From: Candidatus Neomarinimicrobiota bacterium | GTDB lineage: Bacteria; Fidelibacterota; Marinisomatia; Marinisomatales; TCS55 | NCBI GenBank assembly: GCA_018651745.1 | Contig: JABIDL010000020.1 | Location: 4,221 to 68,220 of the forward strand | Direction: 5' to 3' | Length of the DNA: 64,000 bases | Shown here: one piece after another, positions 2,726-57,447 of the stretch | How the letters are laid out: every line of letters starts with the position of its first letter | Position numbering within the stretch: the stretch's first letter is position 1 | Notes under the pieces: generated by a model | Told to the model about the DNA's origin: nothing | The model's database searches: none | Seen by the model: the letters and a program-made list of their open reading frames with translations, nothing else | Program-made: the position numbers and the translations under genes

Positions 2726-2928
2726 TCAACGTCACTTAATTCAAGAATCAAATCCAGCATAAGCCTCGCCATGGCATTCGATCCTGCTATAGCGGATTGC
2801 AGGTTACAGGGCACCGCTGTCTCCCCATCTAGCACGACCAAATTTTCAAAAAACTTCTCGCTCACCAATCGAAGATTGCGAAGATTGGTGGAATCAATCT
2901 CGATGTAAAATCGGGACGACCTCTGCAT
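2698..2928 (-). CDS. Possible 76-aa ORF between tRNA-Ala copy and SRP RNA (doubtful)
   Basis: An open frame of 76 codons starts at an ATG that is itself the ATG of a copied tRNA-Ala anticodon arm (GCAATGCAGAGG) and ends TAA inside the 5' arm of the SRP RNA. The translation is moderately protein-like (MQRSSRFYIEIDSTNLRNL at the start), but there is no recognisable family and no Shine-Dalgarno. The overlap with a structured RNA argues against it. I list it because it holds the position that a GIY-YIG gene occupies beside the other copied tRNAs here. It may be a decayed cargo gene or chance. Confidence 0.2.
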   Translation of the reverse strand: MQRSSRFYIEIDSTNLRNLRLVSEKFFENLVVLDGETAVPCNLQSAIAGSNAMARLMLDLILELSDVEASSYWSYF

Positions 2929-2931
2929 TGC
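2886..2931 (-). repeat. Degenerate partial copy of tRNA-Ala(CGC) with hairpin in place of T arm
   Basis: Six bases past the tRNA-Ala gene, the minus strand repeats its 14-nt segment GCAATGCAGAGGTC exactly (2918-2931 versus 2962-2975). It then has a hairpin (2898-2916, plus-strand arms TCTCGAT/ATCGGGA, loop GTAAA) where the T arm should be, then TGATTCCACCA, similar to the tRNA 3' end. The hairpin has the same TCCCG-type outer sequence as those next to tRNA-Ser(GGA) and tRNA-Gly. Confidence 0.5.
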
Positions 2932-2936
2932 TTTTG

Positions 2937-3009
2937 TGGAACCGAGGAGGATCGAACTCCTGACCTCTGCATTGCGAACGCAGCGCTCTCCCAACTGAGC
3001 TACGGCCCC
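2937..3009 (-). tRNA. tRNA-Ala(CGC)
   Basis: 73-nt cloverleaf on the minus strand: acceptor GGGGCCG/CGGTTCC with two G-U pairs, D arm GCTC/GAGC, anticodon loop TTCGCAA giving anticodon CGC, T arm AGGAG/CTCCT with TTCGATC loop, discriminator A. CCA is not encoded. A partial copy follows immediately downstream. Confidence 0.95.
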
Positions 3010-30718: not shown

Positions 30719-30806
<88 letters not shown>

Positions 30807-30811
30807 AATAT

Positions 30812-31063
30812 CTAAACAATTCCAATAAGCTGTTTAAACGCTTCTCCACCTTTGTATGATTTAATCTTCTTTTCCCTTTTTCGTGCTTCTGCTATTGTAC
30901 CATAATTTTCTATGTGAATCAACTGTAGTGGCCTTCTCAATTTAGTGGATTTTACCGATCCATTGTTATGAGCAATTAATCTTTCTTCAAAATTTTTGGA
31001 ATAACCAATATAATAATTTCCGTCTTTTAAACTTTGAAGAACATAAACACAATATTTACTCAT
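30812..31063 (-). CDS. Small GIY-YIG nuclease between tRNA-Ser repeats
   Basis: 83 aa from the ATG at 31063 (MSKYCVYVLQSLKDGNYYIG). A longer frame to 31117 is only the tRNA fragment read as protein. The GIY-YIG core is CVYVLQSLKDGNYYIGYS, with Arg in FEERLIAHNNG and Glu in EARKREKKIKSYKGG: the whole single-domain fold (UPF0213/YhbQ type). The stop lies five bases before the intact tRNA-Ser(GGA). The gene is bracketed by a 30-bp direct repeat of the tRNA 5' end, with a 17-bp perfect hairpin next to one copy. I infer a homing-type or mini-mobile element enzyme; a housekeeping repair role as for YhbQ is the alternative. Confidence 0.8.
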   Translation of the reverse strand: MSKYCVYVLQSLKDGNYYIGYSKNFEERLIAHNNGSVKSTKLRRPLQLIHIENYGTIAEARKREKKIKSYKGGEAFKQLIGIV

Positions 31064-31079
31064 ATTGATTATAGGTACA

Positions 31080-31126
31080 TCCCGCAGAATGCGGGACTCC
31101 TTAAGCCACTCGGACACCTCTCCAAT
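31080..31126 (-). repeat. Partial tRNA-Ser copy joined to a TCCCG hairpin
   Basis: 31097-31126 repeats, base for base, the first 27 nt of tRNA-Ser(GGA) plus three flanking bases (intact copy 30780-30809, 30 bp). It breaks off after the D arm and continues into a perfect hairpin, TCCCGCA-GAA-TGCGGGA on the plus strand (31080-31096). The GIY-YIG gene starts 17 bases further on. The pattern is that of an insertion in the tRNA gene that restores one full copy. Confidence 0.85.
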
Positions 31127-55972: not shown

Positions 55973-56293
55973 TCAGTTGAACCAAACTCCCATTCCACCT
56001 GCCCTGAGCGCTTTTCCTAGCATGGTTTCAATTTCTTCTGCATCTTTCCGCGTTGGAATAGGATTATATTTTTCGTATAGATCTTTCCGGAGTTTGAGCC
56101 CAAACCGTTTTGCAAACGTATTAGATTTGTATCCTTCTTTGTGTTGTTCAAATCTTATCTCCGGTTTTCGCGTAGATTGCCCAACATAAACGCAATTGTT
56201 TCCTTTTATATATTTTGGGTTTTTGTTTCTGAATTTTTTTAAATCTGCAACAAGACGGTCAAGTTCAATGACATAAACGTAATAGCGTTTCAT
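55973..56293 (-). CDS. GIY-YIG domain protein, 106 aa
   Basis: Contains YYVYVIELD near the start, then a loop with Lys, then NCVYVGQSTRKPEIRFEQHK (YVG, with R for catalysis) and a Glu helix (TRKDAEEIETMLGKALRAGG). This is another type of GIY-YIG than the two next to tRNAs and has no tRNA fragment beside it. It lies 8 bases after the PNPOx gene, in one operon. Possible role in DNA cleavage or repair is unproven. Confidence 0.7.
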   Translation of the reverse strand: MKRYYVYVIELDRLVADLKKFRNKNPKYIKGNNCVYVGQSTRKPEIRFEQHKEGYKSNTFAKRFGLKLRKDLYEKYNPIPTRKDAEEIETMLGKALRAGGMGVWFN

Positions 56294-56987: not shown

Positions 56988-57011
56988 AAACCCTGCAAAT
57001 TTGCAGGGTTT
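56988..57011. terminator. 24-bp perfect palindrome, probable terminator
   Basis: AAACCCTGCAAA/TTTGCAGGGTTT: perfect inverted repeat followed on the minus strand by TATGTTTT. It lies 7 bases after the second tRNA-Gly fragment, so it probably ends the tRNA-Gly / GIY-YIG transcript; it could work both ways. Confidence 0.65.
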
Positions 57012-57018
57012 AAGTGGG

Positions 57019-57056
57019 TGAGCGAGAGATCCCGACTTAGTCGGGACGACATCCAC
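57019..57056 (-). repeat. 38-bp tRNA-Gly-derived repeat with TCCCG hairpin, copy 2
   Basis: Plus-strand TGAGCGAGAGA then TCCCGACTTAGTCGGGA then CGACATCCAC; identical to 57304-57341. The hairpin (57030-57046, 7-bp stem, loop TTA) contains the GIY-YIG stop codon. The flanks are tRNA-Gly 3' acceptor and variable-region sequence. Confidence 0.9.
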
Positions 57057-57297
57057 TTTGCTTAATCAGTTTCTCAGTCATTATTCTGCTTTTCCACCCT
57101 TTGAATTCCATTTCACGTTTTACAGCTTCACTTTTTGTAGCAAAAGTTTCATCATATTTCAATTCCCACGGAATTCCCACTTTTGTAAATGGGTTTATAC
57201 CGGAGTTATGCCGCTTTAATCTTTTCTTTAAATCTTTGCAATGACCGTAATAATATCGATCCCTGCTATCTGAAAATAAAATATAAGCGTAATACAT
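57037..57297 (-). CDS. Small GIY-YIG nuclease between tRNA-Gly repeats
   Basis: 86 aa. GIY-YIG core: YYAYILFSDSRDRYYYGHCK, catalytic Arg in LKKRLKRHNSG, then FTKVGIPWELKYDETFATKS and Glu in EAVKREMEFKGWKS. A complete single-domain nuclease like the one beside tRNA-Ser(GGA), but of clearly different sequence. The C terminus (SGCRPD) and stop are encoded by tRNA-derived repeat and hairpin. The start is 7 bases after the other repeat copy. I infer the enzyme that moves or maintains the element; function not proven. Confidence 0.82.
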   Translation of the reverse strand: MYYAYILFSDSRDRYYYGHCKDLKKRLKRHNSGINPFTKVGIPWELKYDETFATKSEAVKREMEFKGWKSRIMTEKLIKQSGCRPD

Positions 57298-57301
57298 AAA
57301 T

Positions 57302-57360
57302 TTTGAGCGAGAGATCCCGACTTAGTCGGGACGACATCCACGTTGGCAACGTGGTGCTCT
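57302..57360 (-). repeat. Partial tRNA-Gly copy with T arm replaced by hairpin
   Basis: Two blocks match the intact tRNA-Gly gene exactly: 57302-57314 (3' acceptor side, equals 57371-57383) and 57332-57360 (anticodon and variable region, 29 bp, equals 57399-57427). Between them the T arm CGAGATTCGAACTCG (57384-57398 in the intact gene) is replaced by TCCCGACTTAGTCGGGA (57315-57331). The 5' acceptor and most of the D arm are missing. Confidence 0.88.
57304..57341 (-). repeat. 38-bp tRNA-Gly-derived repeat with TCCCG hairpin, copy 1
   Basis: Identical to 57019-57056, 285 bases away in direct orientation; the two copies bracket the GIY-YIG gene. This copy is inside the larger tRNA-Gly partial copy. 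Confidence 0.9.
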
Positions 57361-57374
57361 CCTAATATTATTTG

Positions 57375-57447
57375 AGCGAGAGACGAGATTCGAACTCGCG
57401 ACATCCACGTTGGCAACGTGGTGCTCTACCAGCTGAGCTACTCTCGC
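57375..57447 (-). tRNA. tRNA-Gly(GCC)
   Basis: 73 nt. Acceptor GCGAGAG/CTCTCGC, discriminator T, D arm GCTC/GAGC, anticodon stem CCACG/CGTGG with loop TTGCCAA (anticodon GCC), T arm GCGAG/CTCGT-type with TTCGAAT loop. A changed partial copy follows 14 bases downstream. Confidence 0.96.

Follow-up and report, generated by a model that had tools for sequence, protein, structure and literature searches.

The window, a stretch of 64,000 nucleotides from a Neomarinimicrobiota genome of 1.86 Mb, carries at its tRNA-Gly(gcc) gene the set of features listed in Table 1. The intact tRNA-Gly is followed by a residual copy of part of its own sequence, a small GIY-YIG nuclease ORF and a second, shorter residual copy, all of which were found where the original prediction had placed them. 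In both residual copies a 17-nt hairpin stands in place of the 15 nt at tRNA positions 50-64, which bears out the proposed exchange of the T arm for a hairpin. The nuclease stop codon was rightly placed inside this hairpin, at 57030-57046 in the right copy, and the C-terminal residues ..GCRPD are therefore encoded by tRNA-derived and hairpin sequence. Two points of the prediction held in part. The unit was described as bounded by perfect direct repeats at 285 bp; the spacing and a perfect stretch of 38 bp were recovered, but the full repeats are 42 bp long with one mismatch. Likewise the hairpin exchange in the copied tRNA stands, but the left copy falls short of a complete tRNA and consists of positions 21-49, the hairpin and positions 65-74.

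Table 1. Features of the two elements and the scar in the window
Feature	Position	Strand	Basis or composition
Intact tRNA-Gly(gcc), functional copy	57374-57447	-	ARAGORN; Rfam RF00005, 70.8 bits
Left residual tRNA-Gly copy	57305-57360	-	Positions 21-49 (57332-57360), hairpin (57315-57331), positions 65-74 (57305-57314)
Left hairpin TCCCGACTTAGTCGGGA	57315-57331	.	Sequence match
GIY-YIG nuclease ORF, 86 aa	57037-57297	-	PF01541, E=3.5e-13
Right residual tRNA-Gly copy	57020-57060	-	Positions 36-49 (57047-57060), hairpin (57030-57046), positions 65-74 (57020-57029)
Right hairpin TCCCGACTTAGTCGGGA, with nuclease stop codon inside	57030-57046	.	Sequence match
Terminator-like inverted repeat AAACCCTGCAAATTTGCAGGGTTT, downstream of right tRNA-Gly copy	56988-57011	-	Inverted repeat
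Intact tRNA-Ser(gga), second element	30719-30806	-	ARAGORN
Second tRNA-associated GIY-YIG ORF, 83 aa	30812-31063	-	Ends 5 nt ahead of intact tRNA-Ser
Hairpin TCCCGCAGAATGCGGGA, tRNA-Ser element	31080-31096	.	Sequence match
Residual tRNA-Ser copy, positions 1-27 + 3 nt flank	31097-31126	-	30/30 identical to 30780-30809
Decayed scar behind tRNA-Ala(cgc) (2936-3009)	2888-2930	-	Positions 36-49, mutated hairpin TCCCGATTTTACATCGAGA, 3'-end remnant; without nuclease

A whole-genome search found TCCCGACTTAGTCGGGA exactly twice in the 1.86 Mb, at these two positions only, and about 0.07 near-matches would be expected in the window by chance. Searching the same genome also revealed a second element at tRNA-Ser(gga), spanning 30719-31126 with the nuclease ORF directly before the tRNA, so that the window holds two elements (Gly and Ser) together with one decayed scar at tRNA-Ala(cgc); neither the second element nor the scar figured in the original prediction. 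One pair is broken in the TCCCGATTTTACATCGAGA hairpin of the scar, and a tRNA-Ala scar with the hairpin intact lies at the corresponding place in another genome (G010, locus L258). Most other TCCCG..CGGGA matches in the window's own genome lack adjoining tRNA sequence and are chance-like, while most such loci checked in G010 are at tRNA or tRNA-like sequence, and a general dispersal of hairpins through the genome was rejected on these observations. A single gene separates the tRNA-Gly element from a further GIY-YIG ORF of a different type (55973-56293, minus strand; PF01541, 6.9e-6), and synteny of the M28 peptidase suggests that the stretch with this ORF may itself have been inserted between tRNA-Gly and the peptidase.

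The nuclease subfamily and its tRNA genes

The 86-aa ORF of the window belongs to the GIY-YIG superfamily by its profile match and by its conserved GIY, YIG, Arg and Glu. The GIY-YIG domain alone covers residues 1-73, and a separate DNA-binding region was not found in the ORF. Related proteins are likewise about 80 aa long and consist of the catalytic domain only, with Y5, Y16, G18, R26, H30 and E62 invariant in an alignment (A1) of 13 diverse members.

Searches of the taxonomic family, the phylum Neomarinimicrobiota and, with a single protein as query, relatives elsewhere gave 173 distinct GIY ORFs; the genomes are for the most part metagenome assemblies. No more than 400 nt separated 136 of the 173 from a tRNA gene (101 were within 100 nt), and all 136 lay on the strand of their tRNA, with about 20 isoacceptors represented. 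Beside 123 of these 136 ORFs stood partial copies of that very tRNA, and where the tRNA was upstream the ORF often started no more than 10 nt from the tRNA end (45/114). Two patterns recurred. Intact tRNA, nuclease and hairpinned 3' fragment follow each other at Gly, Ala, Pro, Val, Leu, Asp and others, and a hairpinned 5' fragment precedes nuclease and intact tRNA at Ser-gga and Met. Beyond the phylum the arrangement was also found in Flavobacterium, Melioribacteraceae, Ignavibacteriae, Cryomorphaceae, Desulfobacteraceae and Parcubacteria. The tRNA association is specific to the subfamily: 132 of 162 ORFs scoring at least 75 bits were near a tRNA, as against none of the 13 lower-scoring GIY ORFs (48-62 bits) in outgroup genomes.

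The remaining 37 ORFs were away from tRNAs, some of them at contig ends. At three such loci (L038, L233 and L249) repeated ATTCCGG..CCGGAAT or ATCCCG..CGGGAT hairpins are found alongside the ORF in an Ssn-like manner. At L035 and L033, tandem repeats of about 40 nt, with the unit cttcggtcggcaggccaacttgcgtattgctatgcggtac in L035, occupy the space between tRNA-Ser and the GIY ORF.

The dN/dS ratio of nuclease genes was 0.05-0.33 over nine comparisons, a range that indicates purifying selection on the nuclease in relatives. In a tree of 157 nucleases, with shuffled labels as control, the tRNA isoacceptor label changed 44 times compared to 89-102 in the shuffles, and the host-family label changed 68 times compared to 81-90. 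Nuclease lineages therefore track the target more than the host.

Hairpin positions and allelic states

The hairpins are mostly TCCCG..CGGGA and replace the D, anticodon or T arm in the tRNA copies. Their stems are kept and their loops are variable, and the outer pairs co-vary (TA, CG, GC). On tRNA coordinates 63 junctions, not all independent since several of the genomes are related, fell in the T arm 29 times (13.7 expected), in the anticodon arm 18 times, in the D arm 13 times and in the variable region twice, one (L157) being placed in no arm. The acceptor stem had none of the 63, where 14.6 would be expected. Identical junctions recur across tRNAs and phyla, namely 49|58, 56|57 (a plain T-loop insertion, GTTC|GA), 56-57|65, 49|65 (the tRNA-Gly element of the window), 26|44 (precisely the anticodon arm) and 12|19 (the D arm). 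The hairpin excess per genome was correlated with the number of nucleases (rho 0.60, p 4e-5). In Flavobacterium/Bacteroidetes loci (L159-L161) copies of tRNA-Arg(tcg) have a CCTGCCTGCCGGCAGGCAGG-type hairpin inserted in their D loop, and the copy in L161 is full length apart from it.

The DoxX - tRNA-Gly - M28 peptidase locus was empty in one genome (L170) and occupied in another of the same genus (L176), with flank identities of 85/90 on the 5' side and 73/87 on the 3' side. The tRNA-Gly span was 74 bp in the empty and 555 bp in the occupied allele. In the latter, hairpinned fragments of the resident tRNA-Gly abut both native flanks, and the space between them is taken up by the nuclease and an intact tRNA-Gly that has a terminator of its own. 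The proposal that the element carries its own altered tRNA end is thus reversed for tRNA-Gly at this pair of loci, the best one available: because the native flanks abut the hairpinned pieces, these are the remnants of the resident gene, and it is the intact tRNA that travels with the nuclease. Between tRNA-Pro and LeuS, the site is empty in the window's own genome and in many relatives, occupied in G034 and G038, and scarred without a nuclease in G024, G025 and G010. The scars of G010 are tandem 55-bp units of a tRNA-Pro fragment with the hairpin TCCCGAGTTTACATCGGGA (L196:1-160, L251:860-1029). Elsewhere (L006, L022, L099, L112 and others) the nuclease itself is present in tandem copies, which are evidence of repeated insertion or unequal recombination.

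Presence/absence polymorphism as in homing elements is thus seen among relatives at defined sites in tRNA-Gly and tRNA-Pro. A mini mobile element targeting tRNA had been predicted, an idea to be abandoned if the arrangement occurred in no other genome and close strains all had it with no empty site. It has been strengthened instead, since the arrangement occurs in dozens of genomes at about 20 kinds of tRNA, with empty, occupied and scarred alleles at syntenic loci.

A homing-type reading and its competitors

We consider it fairly probable (roughly 0.6) that these loci harbour a minimal homing-type mobile element specialised on tRNA genes, which makes good the tRNA that it disrupts and is transcribed from the tRNA promoter. 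Comparison of the loci shows, at the sequence level, tRNA specificity, alleles in empty, occupied and scarred form, a restored tRNA, the positions of the hairpins and selection on the protein. That the enzyme cuts, that the element homes through repair, that the hairpin protects and that the tRNA promoter drives expression is what we infer. The unit would be a stand-alone GIY-YIG catalytic-domain ORF joined to tRNA sequence. Its nuclease would cut a tRNA gene that lacks the element, close to a loop or an arm base, and recombinational repair from an occupied copy would bring an intact tRNA end, the nuclease and the hairpin into the break, with the hairpin at the start of the right-hand homology, for example at position 57/58 or 64/65. 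After entry the cell would retain one complete tRNA beside the nuclease ORF, accompanied in the best example by a terminator of its own. Of the resident tRNA, 5' fragments, 3' fragments or both would persist next to the native flanks, their arms interrupted or replaced by hairpins. The hairpin may rid the residual copy of its cut site and may discourage recombination that deletes the nuclease. Because the ORF is invariably on the tRNA strand and often 0-8 nt past the 3' end, it probably relies on the tRNA promoter for expression and on tRNA processing for release.

That the hairpin blocks cutting is plausible for the residual copies. Hairpin protection alone does not account for the survival of the intact tRNA adjoining the nuclease, nor does it require that one class of hairpin sequence is found in different tRNAs and phyla. 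The ORF, as judged by its domain content, also lacks the separate DNA-binding domain that is usual in a homing enzyme.

The intact tRNA would survive if the protein acts on folded single-stranded DNA. Ssn proteins are single-stranded DNA nucleases among the small GIY-YIG proteins of UPF0213 / COG2827, which share size and fold with the proteins studied here; next to the genes of some members stand TCCCG-type hairpins. Homology to UPF0213 is evident in the matches to 1zg2 (E=6.1e-16) and 1ywl (7.9e-13), and the closest solved folds are UPF0213 proteins and the structure-specific nucleases SLX1. A difference is that the lower-scoring outgroup GIY genes, 0/13 of which are at tRNAs, form a separate score class. 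It is possible, though not the reading we favour, that an Ssn-like nuclease recognises both TCCCG hairpins and the arms that a tRNA gene forms as folded single-stranded DNA, whether in transformation, in conjugation or in synthesis of the lagging strand. Chromosomal tRNA genes in duplex form would then be safe and incoming empty alleles would be cut, and arms would give way to hairpins at stem bases and loop tips, a scheme to which we attach the same minority weight. The junctions do coincide with the bases of arms and the tips of loops (49|58, 56|57, 56-57|65, 49|65 and 26|44, the last being the anticodon arm exactly), two GIY ORFs away from tRNAs (L233, L249) are flanked on both sides by ATCCCG..CGGGAT hairpins, and the hairpin excess follows the GIY count of each genome (rho 0.60); selection could, however, set the hairpin position instead. 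More tentatively still, and on balance doubtfully, the loci could represent a categorically new type of mobile element, a stand-alone GIY-YIG domain that recognises tRNA-gene DNA in its folded form, cleaves it at the bases of arms and the tips of loops, puts its own TCCCG hairpins in place of tRNA arms and renders the cell dependent on the carried tRNA.

A system at the RNA level is improbable, whether the nuclease or the hairpinned tRNA copies control how tRNA is processed or a tRNA-cutting nuclease and an immune hairpin form make up a toxin-antitoxin pair. The ORF does lie on the same strand within the tRNA transcription unit, stems are preserved through pair changes while loops vary, and the hairpinned copies can fold. 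The GIY-YIG relatives found are, however, DNA nucleases, the hairpinned copies are often short fragments that decay after loss of the nuclease, and empty alleles are common, which argues that there is no general need for such a system. Ordinary tRNA duplication and pseudogene decay with the GIY gene as a chance passenger is scarcely credible, for although tandem arrays clearly arose by recombination between repeats (L196, L022), some 20 tRNA kinds, 136/136 ORFs on the tRNA strand, specific hairpins at specific arms and a subfamily-specific association speak against it, and as a full explanation it is refuted by the association and hairpin counts.

If the homing-type reading is true, the elements form a very small and common class of bacterial selfish DNA in which one nuclease domain seizes essential tRNA genes, linking homing endonucleases, gene rescue and DNA hairpins. 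They would account for many "GIY-YIG family" genes and many tRNA fragments of environmental genomes that have so far had no explanation, offer naturally occurring replacements of tRNA arms at defined positions and perhaps provide compact nucleases whose targets in tRNA genes are defined. The mechanism is accessible to experiment, as a sequenced and named strain, Flavobacterium sp. SUN046 (L161), has an element.

Comparison with known systems

A targeted literature search, with subscription journals mostly outside its coverage, found no earlier description of the arrangement. A group I intron was rejected, as the tRNA alone reached the Rfam gathering score in the window element and no intron was found in six related loci, and so was a defence system, the only PADLOC match having E=0.025. 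A phage vehicle was rejected since close relatives gave only three weak partial matches in phage records and none in viral contigs (two scans). Like the tRNA islands of tyrosine recombinases, the element uses tRNA genes as sites and the tRNA end is restored. It differs from them in its units of about 0.3-0.5 kb, its hairpins, its insertion in D, anticodon and T arms and the residual fragments at both flanks; the insert holds an intact tRNA and the GIY ORF only, and no integrase.

SegB of T-even phages is a free-standing GIY-YIG homing endonuclease (PMC13096335, PMC2988022) that cuts within tRNA genes at RAWTSGAAC and drives tandem amplification (PMC13096335). The complement of this site, GTTCSAWTY, is the T-loop sequence where many of the hairpins described here are located. 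Shared with SegB are a GIY-YIG gene adjoining tRNA genes of many isotypes, its location in or beside the target tRNA genes (136/173 here), tandem amplification and horizontal mobility. SegB is however phage-borne with its own promoters, and hairpin-substituted tRNA fragments or a restored tRNA end have not been described for it, whereas the proteins here are chromosomal, about 80 aa long and made of the catalytic domain alone, and the missing DNA-binding region speaks against placing them firmly among SegB-like enzymes. The fungal mitochondrial mORFs, found in atp6 of Allomyces and in atp6, atp9, cox2 and nad3 of Glomus (PMC3630166), are endonuclease ORFs that enter an essential gene, supply a replacement end and strand the native end downstream, and the one at atp9 is GIY-YIG. 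The same gene rescue is seen here, with a replacement end beside the endonuclease and the native end stranded as hairpinned fragments at the native flanks. The mORFs differ in their mitochondrial protein-coding targets and in a stranded end without replacing hairpins, and a whole tRNA is carried here. SegB and the mORFs are the closest parallels, and by analogy the element would operate like SegB combined with a gene-rescuing mORF.
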